Under the pieces are notes generated by a model. The model made no database searches, was not told where the DNA came from, and was given only the letters and a program-made list of their open reading frames with translations. Positions 9,245 through 64,000 of a stretch of 64,000 bases of DNA are shown piece after piece. The translations under genes and the position numbers were made by a program. Within the stretch, counting starts at the first letter, position 1. Each line of letters starts with the position of its first letter. Source of the DNA: Microbacterium forte (GTDB lineage Bacteria > Actinomycetota > Actinomycetes > Actinomycetales > Microbacteriaceae); NCBI RefSeq assembly GCF_031885415.1, contig NZ_CP116871.1, forward strand, positions 3,348,001 through 3,412,000, written 5' to 3'.

Positions 9245-10069
9245 TTGTCCGATCAGATCCAGCACGTGGACGCCGCAGCCCAGGCTGCGGCGTCCACGCC
9301 GTGGTCCATCCGTCTCGATGGCGTCACGGTGCGATACCCGAACGGGACGGTCGGTCTCGACCGTGTCTCGCTCGACATCGACGCCGGAGAGATGGTCGCG
9401 GTCGTGGGCCTCTCAGGGTCGGGCAAGTCCACTCTCATCCGCACGATCAACGGCCTCGTGCCGGTGACGAGCGGAACGCTGGACGTCGGCGAGCACCGCG
9501 TCAGCGGAGCCTCGCCCCGCACTCTTCGACGCCTGCGCGGCGACATCGGCATGGTGTTCCAGGGGTTCAACCTCGCAGGCCGGGCGAGCGTCCTGCAGAA
9601 CGTGCTCGTCGGGCGTCTCGCCCACACGCCCCTGTGGCGCACCCTGCTCGGCGCCTACCCCGACGCCGACCGGCGACTGGCCTATCAGGCGCTCGACCGT
9701 GTCGGCATCCTGCCGAAGATCCACTCGCGCGCATCCGACCTCTCGGGTGGGCAACAGCAGCGCGTCGCCATCGCACGCGCACTGGCGCAGGAGCCGCGCA
9801 TCGTCCTGGCCGACGAGCCGGTCGCGAGCCTCGACCCGCCGACCGCGCACGGTGTCATGAACGACCTCCGCCGCATCAATCGGGACCTCGGCATCACCGT
9901 ACTGGTCAACCTGCACCTGCTCGACCTCGCCCGCGAATACGGAGCGCGGATGATCGGCATGCGCGCGGGGAGGATCGTCTACGACGGTCCGGCAGCGAGC
10001 GCGACGGATGCCGACTTCGAGAGCATCTACGGTCGATCCCTCACCGCTGACGATCGGCTCGACACATGA
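9245..10069 (+). CDS. phnC: phosphonate-type ABC transporter ATP-binding protein
   Basis: The ATPase of the importer, with Walker A 'GLSGSGKST', signature '[15 protein letters not shown]', Walker B '[13 protein letters not shown]' and an H-loop His in 'VNLHLLDLA'. I place the start at the TTG one base after the phnD stop. No ATG occurs before Walker A, and the first conserved strand '[13 protein letters not shown]' starts about 20 codons later. The first residues ([12 protein letters not shown]) are encoded by the perfect hairpin 9265-9298, so this N-terminal stretch may be an RNA element with incidental coding. A GTG at 9266 is the alternative start. The downstream permease overlaps by ATGA. 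Confidence 0.92.
9265..9298 (+). terminator. perfect 16-bp hairpin at phnD/phnC junction (attenuator?)
   Basis: Arms cgtggacgccgcagcc (9265-9280) and ggctgcggcgtccacg (9283-9298) are perfect reverse complements. It starts 22 bases past the phnD stop. No T tract. It probably reduces read-through, or protects the phnD mRNA 3' end, so that binding protein exceeds the membrane components. Confidence 0.6.
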
Positions 10070-10875
10070 CCGAGGCGACACCGGCACCGCTCGAGATACC
10101 TCGGCGGCCGTCCGGCGCGTGGCGTGGGCCCGTGATCCTGCTGGCCATCGTCGCCATCACCGTGGTCATGTGCCTGCCCGGCATCGGCATCGGGGTCGAC
10201 CTCTCGGCGATCGCGCGCAACTGGCAGAACGGCGCCGACAAGATCATCAAGCTGCTGATGCCCGACTGGAGCTTCTTCCCGCGCACGCTCCCGCCGCTCA
10301 TCGAGACGCTGCAGATGGCCGTCATCGCGACGGCGATCGGCGCGGTGATCTCGCTGCCGCTGAGCTTCTGGGCGGCTCGCGCCACCAACCCGAACGCTCC
10401 GGCGCGCATCATCGTGCGCGGCATCCTGAACGTCATCCGCAGCGTCCCCGACCTGCTCTACGCGGCGATCCTCGTCGCGATGGTGGGTGTCGGCGCGCTC
10501 CCCGGCATCCTCGCGCTGCTGCTGTTCAATATCGGAATCATCGTCAAGCTCGTGTCGGAGGCGATCGACACCAACGACCGGGGTCCGCTCGAGGCGGGCC
10601 GCGCGGTCGGAGCCACTCAGACGAAGATCAACCGCACGCTCGCGCTCCCGGACGCCTGGCCGGCGTTCGCGAACCAGACCCTCTACGTCTTCGAGCTCAA
10701 CGTCCGCGCCTCGACGGTGCTCGGTCTGGTCGGCGCCGGCGGCATGGGCCTGCTCATCGACGCCGTCCGCACGTTCTACCGCTACGACCAGCTCTCGCTC
10801 ATCATCCTGGAGATCCTCATCGTCGTCATCGTGATCGACCTCGTCTCCGACGCCATCCGACGGAGGCTCGTATGA
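10066..10875 (+). CDS. phnE: phosphonate-type ABC transporter permease 1
   Basis: A 269-residue inner-membrane permease of the PhnE family with about six membrane segments. The ABC-coupling EAA loop is visible as '[20 protein letters not shown]' and the C-terminal family motif as '[20 protein letters not shown]'. It overlaps phnC and the second permease by ATGA each, indicating translational coupling. With its paralogue it likely forms a heterodimeric channel for the substrate delivered by PhnD. Confidence 0.92.
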
Positions 10876-55742: not shown

Positions 55743-56621
55743 ATGACGACTGTCGAAACCACGGCCGCGCCCGGCTCGGCTCTGCGCGTGGCACTGCGCA
55801 CTGCTCACTCCCGGTCGCTCGCAGACCTCGGACTCAATGCGATCGGTCGCGCCCGCTTCGGGTGGCGCGATCGGTCGATCGGCTCGGTGGTCGAACGCGC
55901 GGGTGCGCGGTATTGGCTGCGCGTCGTCTGGTCTGCCAGAGATCGGGCGCGTGGTTCCTGGTGGACCGGCAATCGGGACGCCTCGCAGATCGACGGGGTT
56001 GCGAAGCCGCGCCTGCTCGAGGTGCGGGCGTGGGAGGAAGGGCCACTCGTGTATCGCGCCGAACTCATGACCCTGCTGCCCGGGCGAGCGTGCGCGACGG
56101 ACGCCGTGCTCGCAGGAGCGCCTGCGCTCGACGAGTCGTGGTGGGGAGAGCTGGAGCGCAACCTCGAAGCCCTGTCGGATGCGAGGACGGATCGGATGGT
56201 GCTCGACCCTGAGATCATGCGCCGGCGGATCAGCGTCTTCTTCGGCATCGAGATGGACATCGACTCGGATGATTGGGTGCCGAGCCACGGCGACCTGCAC
56301 TGGAACAACATCCACCGCGATCCGTTCGCGATCGCCGACTGGGAGGCGTGGGGCCTCGCGCCGCGCGGTTACGACGCCGCGTTTCTGCTCGGTCACTCGC
56401 TGGCAGTGCCGCACGTCGCCGATCAGATCGCCCGACGCTTCCGGCGCGACCTGGAGTCGGAAGGCGGCATCGTGTCGCAGCTGTACGTGATGACGAAGCT
56501 GCTGACCCGTGCCGACGCAGGGGAGCACGAGCATCTCGTCCCCGCGCTTCATCGCCATGTGGGGCGCCTTCTCGGCACCAGGGTTCCCCCGGGCCGAAGG
56601 TCGTCGTCGAGCACCACCTGA
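55743..56621 (+). CDS. phosphotransferase (aminoglycoside phosphotransferase-like)
   Basis: A 292-residue kinase-like protein. The catalytic loop is 'VPSHGDLHWNNIHRDPFAIA' (HGDLxxxN) and the metal-binding motif 'DWEAWGLAPRGYDAAFLL'. The N-terminal lobe is weak ('ERAGARYWLRVVWSARD' could carry the ATP Lys/Arg). APH-like kinases phosphorylate small molecules, amino sugars or antibiotics. It stands between tRNA-Ser and the daptide genes; tcatatga occurs upstream of it (55689-55696) and also upstream of the RRE gene (56712-56719), so it might be co-regulated with the cluster, but a role in the pathway is not established. Start ATG with GGAAGG binding site. Confidence 0.75.
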   Translation: MTTVETTAAPGSALRVALRTAHSRSLADLGLNAIGRARFGWRDRSIGSVVERAGARYWLRVVWSARDRARGSWWTGNRDASQIDGVAKPRLLEVRAWEEGPLVYRAELMTLLPGRACATDAVLAGAPALDESWWGELERNLEALSDARTDRMVLDPEIMRRRISVFFGIEMDIDSDDWVPSHGDLHWNNIHRDPFAIADWEAWGLAPRGYDAAFLLGHSLAVPHVADQIARRFRRDLESEGGIVSQLYVMTKLLTRADAGEHEHLVPALHRHVGRLLGTRVPPGRRSSSSTT

Positions 56622-56764
56622 GGCCGCCTCCGCGGGCGGAAACCGAGCTCTGACTTCGCATTTCTCATCCTAAATGGAAAATATTGCAGCACATTTGATG
56701 GATATATAGCCTCATATGAGGACGCGCCGATGCCCGAAAGGCATCCCGACATTTCTGGGGAGAA
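56622..56764 (+). promoter_or_regulatory. AT-rich promoter region of the daptide cluster
   Basis: Unusually AT-rich for this genome around 56665-56710 (for example gatatatagc). It contains the perfect palindrome cctcatatgagg (56710-56721) and the small hairpin gatgcc-cgaaa-ggcatc (56729-56745). ttgcag (56684-56689) is a possible -35 with tatagc (56705-56710) at a short spacing of 15. GGGGAGAAATGC sits at the first gene's start. Confidence 0.5.
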
Positions 56765-57832
56765 ATGCACATCAGCACGAGTGAGGCATCGCGGAAGAGG
56801 CACGAACCGGAGCTCGTCGGGGCACGGGCGCTCCGTGAATGGATCACCGGTGAGCAGGAGCAGTACTCGCGGGTGTTCCTCGTCGAGAGCGGCGCCTCAG
56901 CGGAGACAGTCGCCGCGGTGGCCCGCGAAGACGACGCGGTTCTGCTGCACGCGCAGAGCGGCCCCTATGACGGACCGGCCGATGCCATTCGCTTCACGGG
57001 TGCGCTGAGTGAGGTCGGTGACGAGCTGTTCTTCGGCGAACGCGGCGTCGAGCTCCAGGACTACGTCGCTGCGGCGTTCGTGCAGATCATCGGACCCACA
57101 ACGGTGGGCTTCTTCGACGAGACCGGTTGGCAGTCGTTCCTCGACGACGCCGATCTCGCTCGTCGCACGGGAGTCTTCCCGTCGTCATTGATCGACCCGC
57201 GGGTGCTGCTCGCGAACCGCCGCGCGCTTGCGGCACCGGGCGAACTCGCGACTCCGAGCGCGATCAGGGTGGGCTCGGACGGTCGGATCAGCGTCGGTCT
57301 GCAGGGCGAGGTCATCGGCGAGGTCGACGAGCTGGCGACCGTGATCGAGTCCCGCTTGCCTCGGGCTGTGGCGCTAGGAGGCATGGTGCCCAGACAGGCA
57401 CTCATCGAGGGCCTGACCGGCCGCGGCTGGATCGGTCGCTATCTGCACGCGACGGACCTCATCAAGATGCTCCGCTTGGCGAACGGCGTCGAGAAGATCT
57501 CGGGATTCGGCTGGTCGTTCGTCGATGATGCCCGCGCCGACGCCGAACCGTCGGCCTCGGATCCGTTCCTGCTCGAGACCTCAGGCGGCTTCGTGCTCGC
57601 CGACGTGACGACGTTGCGTCGGCAGCTGCTGTCGCCGATGACAGCCAAGGTCGTCGATGCCACTCAGACCTCGAGCACACCTGAGATCGCGGTCGATCGA
57701 TTGGCTCGGGAGTGCGGCTTGTCCGAGTCTGACGCGAACGCCCTGTGCCGCGACGCTGCCACCGCACTCAACATCCATTTCGGCACACGGGCCCACGCGT
57801 CACGCCACACGGCTTCGGGCAGCGGGCGATGA
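56765..57832 (+). CDS. mpaB: daptide biosynthesis RiPP recognition protein
   Basis: A 355-residue protein that I assign to the MpaB family, the RRE-containing partner that binds the daptide leader and presents precursors to the modifying enzymes. There are no enzymatic motifs. The C-terminal part ('PEIAVDRLARECGLSESDAN ') looks like a small helical domain, and 'TGRGWIGRYLHATDLIKMLR' is a central helical segment. The assignment rests mainly on position: it is immediately followed, with ATGA overlap, by aminotransferase and dehydrogenase genes and then the precursors, the known daptide gene order. The ATG follows GGGGAGAA. Confidence 0.8.
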   Translation: MHISTSEASRKRHEPELVGARALREWITGEQEQYSRVFLVESGASAETVAAVAREDDAVLLHAQSGPYDGPADAIRFTGALSEVGDELFFGERGVELQDYVAAAFVQIIGPTTVGFFDETGWQSFLDDADLARRTGVFPSSLIDPRVLLANRRALAAPGELATPSAIRVGSDGRISVGLQGEVIGEVDELATVIESRLPRAVALGGMVPRQALIEGLTGRGWIGRYLHATDLIKMLRLANGVEKISGFGWSFVDDARADAEPSASDPFLLETSGGFVLADVTTLRRQLLSPMTAKVVDATQTSSTPEIAVDRLARECGLSESDANALCRDAATALNIHFGTRAHASRHTASGSGR

Positions 57833-59094
57833 GTGTTCCGCACGCGTTGTGGACGTCGATGCTCCCCGCAGACGCCACCTTCACGCAAGAACGGGTCGCT
57901 GTCAGGGCCGCCGGAAATCGCATCGAGTTCGCGGACGGATCCACACGCCTCAGCGCGACGAGCGGACTGTGGAACGTTCCTCTCGGTTTCGGAAATCGTG
58001 CGGTCGCTGACGCCGTCAGCAGAGCGACGCACGACGCCTCGTACCTGACCCTGTTCCGCGCACCGCATCGATACGCCGAGGTCGCGGCCGAAGCGCTGAT
58101 CGAACTCGCCGACCCCAGCCGGTACAGCCGTGTCATCTTCTGCACGTCGGGCGGGGCAGCGAACGACTCCGCGATGAAACTCGCACGGCAGTACTGGGCG
58201 CAGCAAGGAGCCGCGTCGCGTTCGCTGGTCGTGGGTCTGAAAGGCAGCTATCACGGCACGATGTACGGCAGCCACGCACTGAGCGGAGACGACCTCCTGC
58301 AATCCGTCTACTCCGTCGACCGGAGGTCGGTGCGGCATGTGTCTCACAGCGATGACGGAGAGGAGCTGGAGGCGCTGCTGAAGCGGGAAGGCTCCAGGGT
58401 CGCGTCAGTGGTCGTGGAGCCCGTCCTGGGCAGCGGCGCGCACCCGTTGTCCGACGCTTTCATATCCCGGATCCTCGACCTGCGAGAGGAATACGGCTTC
58501 CTGATCGTCGCGGACGAGGTCGCGACGGGCTTCGGACGCACCGGCACGATGTTCGCCACAGATGAGTGGGCTGCCGCGCCAGACGTGCTCGTTCTGTCGA
58601 AAGCGCTGACGAACGGCGCAACGGGCGCCGCTGCGCTGCTGGTGGGCGCTCGCGTGGCGTCCGAGTTCGTGCGCGGCGGCTGGACCTTCGTCCATGGCGA
58701 GACGCAGGCGGGGACGCCGGCGTGTGCGGCTGCCATCGTCGCGGTGATCGAAGAGCTGCGCCGTATCGACGTGGAGTCGACCACGCGAGCGCTGGCGGCA
58801 GACCTGTGGCACCTGGCGACTCGGCTGAAGTCCGACGGGGTCGTCGCTGAGGTGACAGGGCGGGGGTGCTTCGTGGGGCTGACCCTTCGCAACCAGGATG
58901 CGAGTCAGCTCACCGGCGCCGAAGTTCTCCGTGTCGTGGCCGCCATCGCGGAGAAGGGTGTGCTCGTGCAGCCCGGCCCCAGCGCCATCGAACTGATGCC
59001 GGCATACGGGTTCAGCGCGACTGAACTTCTCGAGATCGATTCGGCTGTGCGCGCCGGCGTCGCGCAGGTGCAGGAGCATCAGCGTGAGCTCTGA
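57829..59094 (+). CDS. mpaC: daptide-type RiPP biosynthesis aminotransferase
   Basis: A 421-residue class III PLP aminotransferase. 'FCTSGGAANDSAMKLARQYW', 'LKGSYHGTMYGSHALSGDD', Asp229 in 'FLIVADEVATGFGRTG' and PLP Lys258 in 'VLVLSKALTNGATG'. In the daptide pathway this enzyme transaminates the C-terminal ketone, made by oxidative decarboxylation of Thr, to a primary amine. It overlaps mpaB by ATGA and mpaD by 11 bases. Sequence alone would only say class III aminotransferase; the specific role follows from context. Confidence 0.88.
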   Translation: MSVPHALWTSMLPADATFTQERVAVRAAGNRIEFADGSTRLSATSGLWNVPLGFGNRAVADAVSRATHDASYLTLFRAPHRYAEVAAEALIELADPSRYSRVIFCTSGGAANDSAMKLARQYWAQQGAASRSLVVGLKGSYHGTMYGSHALSGDDLLQSVYSVDRRSVRHVSHSDDGEELEALLKREGSRVASVVVEPVLGSGAHPLSDAFISRILDLREEYGFLIVADEVATGFGRTGTMFATDEWAAAPDVLVLSKALTNGATGAAALLVGARVASEFVRGGWTFVHGETQAGTPACAAAIVAVIEELRRIDVESTTRALAADLWHLATRLKSDGVVAEVTGRGCFVGLTLRNQDASQLTGAEVLRVVAAIAEKGVLVQPGPSAIELMPAYGFSATELLEIDSAVRAGVAQVQEHQREL

Positions 59095-60226
59095 GTTCGC
59101 CGGTCGGGTTCCGACGCTCTGGCACGGGCGCGGCATCACGCGGCAGACGACCACGCGGCTCACCGCCGATCGCGAGACCCTCGTGATCGCGGATTCGTCG
59201 GTCGCAACACACGTCGTCGACCGTTCGGCCAGAACCATCGAGGTGGACGCTCACTCCATGACCGTCGCAGTTGTCGTCGGGATAGCGCAGGAGATCGCTC
59301 GTCGGCCCCCGAGCGTGATCGTGGCCGTCGGCGGCGGGAGCATTCTCGATGCCACCAAAATCGCATCGCTCTCGCTCGCCCCGGGGCGAACCTTCGACTT
59401 CGCCGTCGAACGCGCGTCGAGGTCGGCGTTGACATTCCTGCCGGATGCCCGGCCGGCCGTGGACGTCGTGGCGGTGCCCACGACGCTCGGTACCTCGTCG
59501 GAGACGAACAGCGTCGGCATCCTCAAGCACGAAAGAGGTTATCGGCTCATCGTCGGGCGCTCCCTGAGACCCCGACACGCCATCATCGATCCCTGCAATC
59601 TGATGACCCTCACGCCGGCCTCGGTCAGGGAGGGCGCACTCGAGGCGTTCCTCCGTCTCGCAGGCGCATCCACGAGCTCACGGCGAAGTGCCAGAGGGCG
59701 ACGCGACGCGGTCGTGATCGGAGGCGCCCTTCTCGAAACGGCCTCCGGCGAGGTGAATGCCGCCGCCTCACGCCTGCGTCTCGCCCGTCTGAGCGCGGCG
59801 ACTCAGCGCAGCGGGGCGCTGAGAGGGCAGGATCCCTACAGCGCCCGCCACTGGTATGTGGCCAACGAAGTCGCCTTCGCTCTGGAGGTTCGCAAGATGG
59901 TCGCCACGGTTGCGGTCATCGCGGCGGTCTGGCGTCGAGTGTGCTCGGGAGACCCGCGGTGGGGAGATCGCGAGAGCCTCGAAGAGTTCTGGACGGGTGT
60001 AGCCGGGCGGGTGGCACTGCCCCTCGACCCCCCAGCGGGTATCGCCGCGCTCATCGACCGCTGGGGGATCCCGACTCCGCCACGGCCCACCGCCCAGACG
60101 ATCCATCGCATTTCCGCCGCCGCGGAAACGGCGTGGGGAAACCGCTACCCGATGCTCGCGGGGCTCTTCGCGGACGACTTCTGCGATCTGCTCCGTGATT
60201 CCTACTGGAGCGAAGGAGGTGAATGA
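59084..60226 (+). CDS. mpaD: daptide-type RiPP biosynthesis dehydrogenase (iron-ADH family)
   Basis: A 380-residue protein of the iron-containing alcohol dehydrogenase fold. NAD-binding 'VAVGGGSILDATKIASL' (GGGS at 83-86) and 'AVPTTLGTSSETNSVGIL' (131-146) are intact. The usual metal-ligand block G-x-D-A-L-x-H-A-x-E is replaced around residues 182-191 by REGALEAFLR, so the standard Asp/His pair is missing. In the daptide pathway MpaD oxidises the C-terminal Thr, whose loss of CO2 leaves an aminoacetone-like ketone. GTG start at 59084 inside the end of mpaC. Precursor gene 1 starts one base after its stop. Confidence 0.85.
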   Translation: MSSEFAGRVPTLWHGRGITRQTTTRLTADRETLVIADSSVATHVVDRSARTIEVDAHSMTVAVVVGIAQEIARRPPSVIVAVGGGSILDATKIASLSLAPGRTFDFAVERASRSALTFLPDARPAVDVVAVPTTLGTSSETNSVGILKHERGYRLIVGRSLRPRHAIIDPCNLMTLTPASVREGALEAFLRLAGASTSSRRSARGRRDAVVIGGALLETASGEVNAAASRLRLARLSAATQRSGALRGQDPYSARHWYVANEVAFALEVRKMVATVAVIAAVWRRVCSGDPRWGDRESLEEFWTGVAGRVALPLDPPAGIAALIDRWGIPTPPRPTAQTIHRISAAAETAWGNRYPMLAGLFADDFCDLLRDSYWSEGGE

Positions 60227-60227
60227 G

Positions 60228-60362
60228 ATGAACGAAAGCGTGCACACGAGTGTCCAGTTCCAAGAGCTGGAGGGAATGGATGCCCCCAGTTGGGAGAGCT
60301 TCTATCAGGGCGCGATCAGTGCGCTGGTGCTGATCGGGATCGGCGCTGCCGCAGCGACGTGA
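60228..60362 (+). CDS. mpaA1: daptide precursor peptide 1
   Basis: A 44-residue peptide: acidic leader with 'VQFQELEGMDAPSWESFYQ' and hydrophobic core 'GAISALVLIGIGAAAAT', ending in Thr. The leader motif F-x-E-L-[ED]-x-x-[DE]-A-P is shared with the next two peptides. The C-terminal Thr is the residue converted to the dimethylated diamine in known daptides. GGAGGTGA lies just upstream. Cleavage point unknown; the conserved Trp region marks roughly where leader gives way to core. Confidence 0.88.
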   Translation: MNESVHTSVQFQELEGMDAPSWESFYQGAISALVLIGIGAAAAT

Positions 60363-60402
60363 TCCTGTCGAGCAGACAAGACGAAAGGGGAGGGAGGTGA
60401 GT

Positions 60403-60528
60403 ATGCACGCAGCAATGCCGACCCTCGAGTTCACCGAACTGGAGGCCATGGAGGCGCCGGATGACGCCCTTGATTGGACCCGCGGATTCGCCGTCGGCGT
60501 GATCATCGGAATCATCGCGCTGACATAG
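60403..60528 (+). CDS. mpaA2: daptide precursor peptide 2
   Basis: A 41-residue peptide with leader 'PTLEFTELEAMEAPDDALDW' and core 'TRGFAVGVIIGIIALT', ending in Thr. It carries an Arg at the core start, unlike the other two. AGGGAGGTGA precedes the ATG at 60403; a GTG at 60400 and an ATG at 60415 are alternative starts. Too short for usual gene callers. Confidence 0.88.
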   Translation: MHAAMPTLEFTELEAMEAPDDALDWTRGFAVGVIIGIIALT

Positions 60529-60564
60529 AAACCGCCTTCGCAAGGCATACCGAGGAGGTAGTAG

Positions 60565-60684
60565 ATGCAGACGGAGTCGCTCGAGTTCGTGGAGCTCGAC
60601 CACATCGATGCACCACTCGAATGGTGGGAGCACGCGAGCTACATCATCGCCATCATCGGCGGTGCGGCAGCGATCGCGACCTGA
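60565..60684 (+). CDS. mpaA3: daptide precursor peptide 3
   Basis: A 39-residue peptide with leader 'ESLEFVELDHIDAPLEWWE' and core 'HASYIIAIIGGAAAIAT', ending in Thr. GAGGAGGT lies upstream of the ATG. A terminator-like hairpin with T tract begins 5 bases past its stop. The three peptides share leader and C-terminal Thr but differ in core sequence, so the cluster should give three products. Confidence 0.88.
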   Translation: MQTESLEFVELDHIDAPLEWWEHASYIIAIIGGAAAIAT

Positions 60685-60689
60685 CCGAA

Positions 60690-60727
60690 GGGGTGCGGGT
60701 GGGTTCGACGCGCCCGCACCCCGTTTT
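60690..60727 (+). terminator. intrinsic-terminator-like hairpin after the precursor genes
   Basis: Arms ggggtgcggg (60690-60699) and cccgcacccc (60713-60722) pair perfectly, followed by gtttt (60723-60727). It lies between the precursor genes and the methyltransferase gene. Confidence 0.8.
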
Positions 60728-60750
60728 CCCCGCTGAGAGGTGATGCGTGA

Positions 60751-61578
60751 ATGTCCAGTTCTCTTACTGAAGCCGTAGTGGCGAGGCTCCGCACGGTCGG
60801 AGCGGTGCCCAAGGAGCAGGATCTGTATTCGGGTGCCGGCACTGATTTCTACGACCGGCTGGTCGGGTCCGACCGTGCGGAGATCAGAGAGATGCTCGCG
60901 CTCGCGAGAGGAACCGAAGGACCGATCCTCGATGTGGCGGCGGGGAGTGGGAGGTTGACCGTCCCGCTGGTCAGATCGGGCAAGCGGGTGACCGCGATCG
61001 ATCTTTCCGACGACATGCTCTCCCGTCTGCGTCGGACGCTGCCGGACCACGCGACGCTCGAGTGCGTCGTCGCGGACATGCGCGACTTCTCGCTGCCGCA
61101 GCAGTTCGGGCTCGTGATCATCGGAGCGACCTCCATCACGTTGCTCGATCGTGTGGGGAGGTCCCTCCTCTACGCCACTGTGCGACGCCACCTCACAGCT
61201 CACGGCGTCTTCGCCTTCACGGTTGCCGGAAACGCCTCCGCGGAGAGCTTCTCTGTGTCGACAGACTGCGAGATCGAGGTCCCCGGTCCTGACGGCGCGG
61301 AGACCTATGTGTTCTCTCAGCAGGTGGAAGAGGATGGCGCGGCGCGCATCGTCAACTGGGTTCGCGTCGCCGACCTGGTGGAGGGCGGCGACGTGACAGT
61401 TCTCACGAGCCGTCTGAGAGTGCTCGACCACGTGCTCCTCTCGCGAGAGCTCGTTCACGCGGGGTTCGCCGTTCCGGCCGTCTCTCCCGTTCGGACGCTC
61501 GGCGGAGAGGACATCGTTCTGCTCACCACGACATTCGCGGGACACTCGGGGGCGAGGGATGACGATGCCTCCCGGTAG
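60751..61578 (+). CDS. mpaM: daptide-type RiPP biosynthesis methyltransferase
   Basis: A 275-residue class I SAM-dependent methyltransferase. SAM motif I is 'PILDVAAGSGRLTVPL' (residues 58-73), followed by 'VTAIDLSDDMLSRLR' and the acidic loop 'CVVADMRDFSLPQQFGLVI'. In daptide biosynthesis it dimethylates the C-terminal primary amine. ATG at 60751 with GAGAGGTGA upstream. It overlaps mpaP by 20 bases. It is the first gene after the hairpin at 60690-60727. Confidence 0.87.
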   Translation: MSSSLTEAVVARLRTVGAVPKEQDLYSGAGTDFYDRLVGSDRAEIREMLALARGTEGPILDVAAGSGRLTVPLVRSGKRVTAIDLSDDMLSRLRRTLPDHATLECVVADMRDFSLPQQFGLVIIGATSITLLDRVGRSLLYATVRRHLTAHGVFAFTVAGNASAESFSVSTDCEIEVPGPDGAETYVFSQQVEEDGAARIVNWVRVADLVEGGDVTVLTSRLRVLDHVLLSRELVHAGFAVPAVSPVRTLGGEDIVLLTTTFAGHSGARDDDASR

Positions 61579-63262
61579 CCTCCCTCGACGCCGACAGTCT
61601 CACTCGGTGGAAGACGCGCTCAGTGCCGACGCGCGCCCTCGCCTCGCCTCCGGAGTCGACTTCGAACAGGCGGCCGAAGACGGGACGTGGATCGCGATGA
61701 TCCACGGTGTGCCGTCATCGAGGGTCTCTCGAGCGGTCGTCGACCTGATGCGAGCGATGAACGGCGAAACGGCGCTGCAGGATCTGCACCGGCGCTTCGC
61801 CCCTTCCGAGTCGTGGGAGAACTTTCTGCAACTGGCCCAGCGCTTCGACACCTGTGGGCTCCTCGAGGGCGGCGAGAAGCTCCCACCCGGCCGCCTGGTC
61901 TATCGGCCCCCATTCACTCTGCAGATCGCGACGCTCCGCGCACCCGCCATCTTCGGTCGTCTGGACCGACTGATCGTCCCGCTCCCACGCCGAGCGATGC
62001 AGGTGTCCGCTGCGGTGCTGATCTGTCTGGGACTTCTTGCCGCAGCCGCTCAGGCGGAGGAGCTGCGCGACGCCCTCACCTCGCCGGTGCCGCTCATCGC
62101 GCTGGTGTATCTCGTCGGAGCGCTCTCGCTCATGACGCTGCTCCACGAGAGCGCCCACGGACTCACGCTCACGAGGTTCGGAGGCAGACCGCGCCGGGCG
62201 GGCTTCATGCTCTTCTACCTGAGTCCCGCGTTCTTCGTGGACGTGACGGACGGATGGCGGCTCCCCGAACGCCGCCAGCGCGTCGCGATCGCGCTGGCAG
62301 GGCCTGCGGTGCACGCTGTCGTCGGCGCGACCGCGCTTCTCGCGGCGCTGATGCTCCGTCACCCCTTGATCCACCAGGCAGCGCTGCTCCTCGCCGTCTC
62401 CTGCGGCGCCATCGTTCTCCTGAATCTGATCCCCTTCGTGCGGTTCGACGGGTACCTCGCGCTCATGAGCGCTCTGGACGAGCCGAACCTCCGGGGTCGC
62501 GCGATCCTCGACGGCTCGAACTTCCTGACCGGTCTGCTGTTCGGAGCTCAGCGGATGACCAAGACCCTGAACACGTGGTGGAGTGTGCCGTTCGGTCTCG
62601 CGAGTCTCGTCACCCCGGTCGTGCTGGTGGTCTTCGCCGTCGCACGCATAGCTCGAGCGCTTGCCGGCGGTGGACCGGTCCTCGGCGTGCTCGTCGTCGC
62701 GCTCGAGGCCGTCGTCGCGCTCGCCGGCGTCGTGCTTCTCAGCAAGGCCCTTCGTCGTGTGCTGCGGTCGGGTGTCGCGCGGCTCCGTTTCTGTTTCGTC
62801 GTCACCGCACTGGTCGCGGGCATCGTGATCGCCGGGGCCGTGATTCCCGTCCCGGTGACCGCCACGTTCGGATTCGTCGCACACGGCGACCGTGTGATCC
62901 TTCTGCATGCCGGCGACACAGCAGCGGCAGCCGAGACAGACGTGCCTGAGGGTGCGCGTGTGGTCCTGATGAGCAACGGCATCCTCGCGAACGAGCAGGT
63001 CGGTAGAGGAACTGTCATGTCGCGGGAGCCGGAGCCGACGCGTGTGCCGCTCGAGGCGCTGTTCCCGATCACGGCGGACGGTGCGACGGTCGCCGCAGTG
63101 ATCATCGCCGGGGTGGACGTGATCGGAGAGAGCCGCTCCCTGCCTGCGACCGGGCAGGCGCGAGTCGAACTCGGTGTGAGAAGTCTGTGGCAGACGCTCT
63201 GGGTGACCGGTGTGGAGATGCCACTGTCATCTCTTCAGAGCGGAGAGGTGGGAAAGGAATGA
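61559..63262 (+). CDS. mpaP: daptide biosynthesis intramembrane metalloprotease (M50 type)
   Basis: A 567-residue membrane protein. The M50 zinc site is 'LLHESAHGLTLTRFGG' (HESAH at 196-200), and the third-ligand-type motif 'FVRFDGYLALM' is near residue 296. About seven to nine membrane helices span residues 150-450. The N-terminal ~110 residues are soluble and look like a small winged-helix/PqqD-like domain ('VSRAVVDLMRAMNGETALQD') that might bind leader. The C-terminal ~130 residues after the last helix are a beta-rich, probably extracellular domain. In the pathway it removes the leader during or before export. ATG at 61559; ATG 61565 is an alternative. Confidence 0.86.
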   Translation: MTMPPGSLPRRRQSHSVEDALSADARPRLASGVDFEQAAEDGTWIAMIHGVPSSRVSRAVVDLMRAMNGETALQDLHRRFAPSESWENFLQLAQRFDTCGLLEGGEKLPPGRLVYRPPFTLQIATLRAPAIFGRLDRLIVPLPRRAMQVSAAVLICLGLLAAAAQAEELRDALTSPVPLIALVYLVGALSLMTLLHESAHGLTLTRFGGRPRRAGFMLFYLSPAFFVDVTDGWRLPERRQRVAIALAGPAVHAVVGATALLAALMLRHPLIHQAALLLAVSCGAIVLLNLIPFVRFDGYLALMSALDEPNLRGRAILDGSNFLTGLLFGAQRMTKTLNTWWSVPFGLASLVTPVVLVVFAVARIARALAGGGPVLGVLVVALEAVVALAGVVLLSKALRRVLRSGVARLRFCFVVTALVAGIVIAGAVIPVPVTATFGFVAHGDRVILLHAGDTAAAAETDVPEGARVVLMSNGILANEQVGRGTVMSREPEPTRVPLEALFPITADGATVAAVIIAGVDVIGESRSLPATGQARVELGVRSLWQTLWVTGVEMPLSSLQSGEVGKE

Positions 63263-63264
63263 GC

Positions 63265-63981
63265 ATGAACGATCACGCGATCGAGGTTCGAGGACTCACG
63301 AAGAAGTACGGAGATCGGGCCGCAGTCGAAGAGCTGTCGTTCGCCGTGCCGTACGGGTCGATCGTGGGTCTTCTGGGGCCGAACGGCGCAGGCAAATCGA
63401 CGACGCTGCGAACGATCGTCGGCCTGCTGAGGCCGACGATGGGCGACAGCCTCATCGACGGCAGGCCGTTCTCGGAGCTCGACAACCCCGCGTCTCACGT
63501 CGGCGTCCACATGGACGGCTTCGGATTCGAGGGCGGCATCACGGCCAGGCGGCATCTGGAGATCTGCCGGCTCGCGGCCGGGGCGCCTCGTGGCCGAGTC
63601 GACGAGGTGCTCGAGGAGGTCGGTCTCGCGGCAGATGCCCGTCGCCGCGTGAAGACCTTCTCGACCGGGATGACCCAGCGACTCGGGCTGGCTGCTGCCC
63701 TCATCGGCTCGCCACGGACACTCATCCTGGACGAGCCGGCCAACGGGCTCGATCCCGACGGCATCCGCTGGCTCCGCAGATTCCTGCGCGGCTATTCGGA
63801 ACGCGGCGGCACCGTCCTGATCGCCAGCCACCAGCTCGCTGAGCTCGAGCAGGTCGTCGACGAGGTCGTCGTCATCAAGCGGCGCGCGCTCTTCGCCGGG
63901 AGGCTCGGCGACCTCGTGACGAGCGACGCCGACTCGCTCGAGAGCAAGTACTTCGATCTCGTTGAAGGAGCATCCGCATGA
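63265..63981 (+). CDS. mpaT1: daptide ABC exporter ATP-binding protein
   Basis: A 238-residue ABC ATPase with Walker A 'GLLGPNGAGKSTTL', a Q-loop variant ('SHVGVHMDGFGF' follows), signature 'FSTGMTQRLGLAAALI', Walker B 'TLILDEPANGLDPDGI' and H-loop 'VLIASHQLAELEQVVDEVVV'. This is the CcmA/BcrA-type ATPase used for peptide export and self-immunity. I prefer the ATG at 63265, which has GGGAAAGGA at normal spacing; ATG 63259 overlaps the mpaP stop. The next ORF overlaps by ATGA. Confidence 0.88.
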   Translation: MNDHAIEVRGLTKKYGDRAAVEELSFAVPYGSIVGLLGPNGAGKSTTLRTIVGLLRPTMGDSLIDGRPFSELDNPASHVGVHMDGFGFEGGITARRHLEICRLAAGAPRGRVDEVLEEVGLAADARRRVKTFSTGMTQRLGLAAALIGSPRTLILDEPANGLDPDGIRWLRRFLRGYSERGGTVLIASHQLAELEQVVDEVVVIKRRALFAGRLGDLVTSDADSLESKYFDLVEGASA

Positions 63982-64000
63982 AGGACACCGTCCGAAGCGA
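63978..64000 (+). CDS. start of the next gene, probable ABC permease (truncated by window end)
   Basis: ATG at 63978 overlaps the ATPase stop (ATGA) and has GAAGGAG upstream. Only seven codons (MKDTVRS) are inside the window. A membrane permease partner for the ATPase is expected here from daptide cluster organisation; the sequence present cannot show it. Confidence 0.5.

Follow-up and report, generated by a model that had tools for sequence, protein, structure and literature searches.

The window analysed here, a stretch of 64,000 nucleotides from the genome of Microbacterium forte (one contig, 3,753,259 bases), contains in its list of open reading frames a run of genes between positions 56765 and 63981, all on the + strand: dapB, dapD, dapC, three precursor genes, dapM, dapP and dapT1. 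The gene dapB (56765–57832) codes for an RRE protein, the putative partner of an oxidative decarboxylase. It is followed by dapD (57829–59094), coding for a class III PLP aminotransferase that putatively converts a ketone to an amine, and by dapC (59084–60226), the product of which is a putative oxidative decarboxylase of the C-terminal Thr and belongs to the Fe-ADH family. The precursor genes are dapA1 (60228–60362; leader ending in FQELEGMDAP, core SWESFYQGAISALVLIGIGAAAAT), dapA2 (60397–60528; leader ending in FTELEAMEAP, core DDALDWTRGFAVGVIIGIIALT) and dapA3 (60565–60684; leader ending in FVELDHIDAP, core LEWWEHASYIIAIIGGAAAIAT). Downstream of them lie dapM (60751–61578) for a putative SAM N,N-dimethyltransferase, dapP (61559–63262) for a putative intramembrane metalloprotease that would remove the leaders, and dapT1 (63259–63981) for the putative ATPase of an ABC exporter. 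All frames of the cluster are open and most neighbours overlap or almost touch. Although the listed dapD frame begins at 57745, its start is best put at 57829, since the ATG at this position overlaps the dapB stop codon as ATGA; the start of dapT1 was likewise placed, from the reading frames, at the dapP stop. The dapA2 gene starts at GTG 60397 or ATG 60403, and the sequence GGAGGTGA directly 5' of dapA1 resembles a ribosome-binding site. An earlier note on this DNA had claimed such a gene set in one direction, and every gene it named was present on the + strand. It had ended the cluster at 64000, which proved incorrect: the cluster runs past the window end with dapT2 and dapT3, found at 9978–10706 and 10703–11437 of L026, the window's own genome locus (window-equivalent from 63978 for dapT2 and to 65437 for dapT3).

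We scored the encoded proteins with NCBIfam models against the curated cut-offs (given below as bits/cut-off). DapB matched daptide_RRE (NF041823, 259.5/150), and a Pfam search up to E 0.1 returned no match for this protein. DapD matched daptide_amino (NF041821, 563.7/450) as well as Pfam PF00202, and it carries LSKALT and ADEV, which we take to be PLP motifs. DapC cleared daptide_DH (NF041822) by a modest margin (321.8/300) and also matched PF00465 (67.2 bits vs a cut-off of 31.3). DapM was recognised by daptide_MTase (NF041820, 257.9/175) and by PF13649 (methyltransferase 25), and shows an ILDVAAGSG motif. DapP, with HESAH and FDG motifs, passed daptide_HExxH (NF041824, 395.2/300), while its match to the M50 family PF02163 stayed under the gathering score (23 vs 27.2). 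The precursors, for which a Pfam search gave no match, were assigned one-to-one to the MpaA1, MpaA2 and MpaA3 models: A1 to daptide_Mpa1 (NF041805, 94.2/40), A2 to daptide_Mpa2 (NF041806, 97.2/40) and A3 to daptide_Mpa3 (NF041807, 88.6/40). Each of the three has an ELExMEAP-like leader, reading ELDHIDAP in A3, and a C-terminal Thr. NCBIfam scores of this size for B, C, D, M, P and the precursors are not produced by chance.

None of the daptide models recognised T1. Among the NCBIfam models it scored highest with galliderm_ABC, at 188.2 bits and thus below the cut-off of 309.75; by Pfam PF00005 (ABC_tran, 99.3/25 bits) it is an ABC ATPase. The position of T1 is kept in 23 of 23 Microbacterium loci. 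For T2 and T3 no Pfam family scored over its cut-off, and we read them as putative membrane subunits of the exporter from their fixed position after T1. A PADLOC search with DapB, DapP and T1 only gave no match for DapB and DapP and 12 generic ATPase-type matches for T1. With B, C, D, M, P and three precursors passing the daptide models, the proposed likeness to the daptide cluster of M. paraoxydans was borne out, and the locus is, judged by its sequence, almost certainly a complete and ordinary member of the published daptide (RiPP) cluster family.

The 23 Microbacterium loci used for comparison (L001–L023) were picked by similarity to the window DapD and are therefore near relatives; a Bacteroidales locus (L024), 23% identical to DapD alone, was excluded from every count. 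The order B-D-C-A1-A2-A3-M-P-T1-T2-T3 was observed in all 23. Directly after the cluster lies a UPF0176/rhodanese gene (L026, 11493–12383). The same neighbour was present in 23/23 loci, which suggests a fixed chromosomal site for the cluster. On the other side, 5' of dapB, the + strand codes for a 292-aa protein (55743–56621) with an HGDLHWNN stretch, presumably kinase-like, for which Pfam and NCBIfam searches gave no match. A relative of this protein was found upstream of dapB in three of the 23 loci (L007, L012 and L022), the upstream sequence of L008 being too short to judge.

We scanned both strands for precursors in 53 loci, namely L001–L023, the window's own locus and a further 29 (L027–L055), which overlap with the first set in that several come from the same genomes as L001–L023, so the sets cannot be counted as independent. 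In each of the 24 loci formed by L001–L023 and the window, the stretch scanned contained a single precursor of each type, A1, A2 and A3. Among L027–L055, three precursors were present in 27 of 29 loci, with two in L028 and one or two in L053. The trio of L051, L052, L054 and L055 is another, differently worded daptide trio, and the precursors of L028 and L053 have long cores of another kind (about 32–35 residues); there is thus more than one daptide lineage in the genus. Since precursor number and gene order are described as little conserved across the daptide class (PMC10036551, excerpted text), the fixed-trio pattern belongs to this Microbacterium lineage.

Conservation statistics were calculated for the 24 loci, with L027–L055 excluded. 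The mean pairwise identity of the core vs the adjoining 12–14 leader residues was 0.84 vs 0.73 for A1, 0.83 vs 0.83 for A2 and 0.92 vs 0.82 for A3. The corresponding pN/pS values were 0.21 vs 0.27, 0.21 vs 0.20 and 0.12 vs 0.23. Related sequences entered both statistics with no correction for the tree. Of all precursor parts the A3 core (window 60616–60681) is the best conserved, above its own leader, and 12 of the 24 loci have it in identical form. RiPP cores are usually variable, and the conservation of the A3 core is unlike the typical case. Its synonymous divergence is also low (pS 0.33), so part of this conservation may reflect codon constraint or exchange.

In the MpaA1 leader, replacement of either L(-7) or M(-4) by Ala is reported to abolish decarboxylation (PMC10036551, excerpted text). 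In the window, L(-7) and P(-1) are present in the leaders of all three precursors and M(-4) in those of A1 and A2, with I(-4) in A3; this Ile is found in the A3 leaders of 22/24 loci and is replaced by Leu in the remaining two. At position -1 the A2 leaders carry Leu in 15 of 24 loci, Pro in seven (the window's included) and Gln in two, and the A1 leader of one locus, L011, also ends in Leu. The published cut follows Pro, and cleavage at leaders ending in Leu or Gln may differ or may tolerate these residues.

The sequences analysed here show which genes are present, to which families they belong, in what order they lie and how far they are conserved; for the chemical steps, activity and products we draw on published homologues. 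We propose that the RRE of DapB would hold the leader motif of each precursor, and that DapB and DapC would turn the C-terminal Thr, by oxidation and decarboxylation, into an aminoacetone ketone. This ketone would be transaminated by DapD, and DapM would dimethylate the amine to (S)-N2,N2-dimethyl-1,2-propanediamine (Dmp). DapP would cleave after the conserved Pro, and the three hydrophobic peptides, exported by T1–T3, would likely act jointly on membranes. In the excerpted text of PMC12338566, the reconstituted pathway begins with an NAD+-dependent oxidative decarboxylation, for which DapB and DapC needed no added metal. DapD then transfers the epsilon-amine of lysine, which is the amine donor in the T. 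fusca system, and DapM carries out the N,N-dimethylation. With Dmp at their ends, the three window cores have predicted [M+H]+ values of 2379.31 (A1), 2299.32 (A2) and 2339.29 (A3).

DapC had been called an Fe-ADH-family dehydrogenase, and the family assignment holds by PF00465. In an alignment to PDB 6c75, Glu187 and Arg191 of DapC face an Asp and a His, which we take to be the Fe-ADH metal ligands. In a second alignment, of 121 sequences made up of the window DapC and the 120 listed of its 149 homologues, conservation of both DapC residues exceeded 95%; it contained no canonical Fe-ADH, and its reference row was a wrong reading frame. The second Fe-ADH match of the genome (31.9 bits) was tried as a metal-ligand reference and dropped, as it presumably resembles a dehydroquinate synthase. 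TfDapC is described as lacking the canonical Fe-ADH metal ligands (PMC12338566, excerpted text). It also works without added metal, so the 'Fe' in the description is just a family name.

Other daptide clusters have been published with extra tailoring, in which YcaO forms an imidazoline end (PMC12338566, excerpted text) or LanKC/LanJ introduce D-Ala. That such enzymes, encoded inside or outside the cluster, would act on the present peptides seems to us extremely improbable: a search of the whole genome for YcaO at E up to 0.001 returned no match, and no additional enzyme gene is apparent from dapB to dapT3. Plain Dmp ends are expected given the lack of a YcaO match. The cluster could also be intact but silent, or decaying, and leave no product. 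A scan of 56500–60800 for promoters, in which no sigma-70-like site was detected, would fit a silent cluster, but just 0.4 hits were expected by chance and the scan is blind to other promoter types; in the same interval one terminator-like site was found, on the opposite strand (1.3 expected). The frames are, however, all open and most of them overlap or nearly touch, and pN/pS of 0.12–0.27 for precursor leaders and cores over the 24 loci suggests purifying selection. We regard silence or decay as improbable and keep the reading of an ordinary daptide cluster, with which no observation conflicts.

For the products of such a cluster, the fixed trio of precursors, with cores conserved as much as or more than the leaders, suggests that the three peptides might come together in a single, defined membrane-active complex of several parts instead of being interchangeable. 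We put this forward tentatively, as a possibility that we consider rather doubtful. Daptides are small membrane-active peptides in which the acidic C-terminus is replaced by a positively charged amine, and some combinations of daptides 1–3 are reported to be more haemolytic (PMC10036551, excerpted text). The strictly kept precursor trio in the genus fits this published joint activity.

Daptide systems are thus already known, the type cluster comes from the same genus, and for one of the three peptides we predict identity with a described product. In a sample of 247 genomes of the genus, among them that of the window, 28 have a DapC above the NCBIfam cut-off and 37 have a match scoring 260 bits or more. 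A protein search with DapC (E up to 0.001; 7,996 candidates scored) listed the best 120 of 149 relatives, and many of the source-named relatives among the matches listed are already titled 'daptide-type RiPP biosynthesis dehydogenase'. The excerpted text of PMC12338566 gives 1,034 putative clusters for the class. The systems tfDap of Thermobifida fusca and saDap of Streptomyces azureus, the chemistry of which has been reconstituted in vitro, share the B, C, D and M set with the window but have YcaO and imidazoline ends (PMC12338566, excerpted text), whereas the window genome has no YcaO match.

The mpa cluster of M. paraoxydans DSM 15019 has the B, C, D, M and P set and three precursors in common with the window, and multi-component ABC transporters are described for the class (PMC10036551, excerpted text). 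Its daptides 1–3, formed by cleavage after the conserved Pro and conversion of Thr to Dmp with a 17 Da loss, have m/z 2363, 2232 and 2339 (PMC10036551, excerpted text). Three of the 53 loci scanned (L019, L029 and L037, with identical cores) matched all three published masses, and L031 and L032 matched two of the three. The cores of L019, from Microbacterium sp. LCT-H2, give 2363.31, 2232.27 and 2339.29, and its A1 leader ELDPMEAP matches the residues that were targets of the published mutations (E-8, L-7, D-6, P-5, M-4, E-3 and P-1; PMC10036551, excerpted text). From these masses and leader residues we infer that L019 is equivalent to the mpa cluster; two core strings sought in the main text of PMC10036551 did not occur there. 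The supposed relatedness to the Mpa enzymes was supported through L019, the best tblastn segments being 54% (B), 75% (D), 63% (C), 65% (M), 57% (P) and 83% (T1) identical.

The earlier note had suggested that the products may be new members of the class, and this stood in part. The window A3 core is identical to that of L019 and, through the mass match, is predicted to be published daptide 3, hence already described. Compared with L019, the A1 core has changes at 3 of 24 positions and the A2 core at 5 of 22. Microbacterium sp. APC 3901 (L022), the closest to the window among L001–L023, has the same gene order and three cores identical to those of the window, with best tblastn segments 86% (B), 91% (D), 84% (C), 88% (M), 82% (P) and 96% (T1) identical. 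Within the parts compared, L022 differs from the window by substitutions in leaders and proteins only. To the known systems the window thus adds one sequenced example and exact predicted masses for two peptides that are close variants of published ones.
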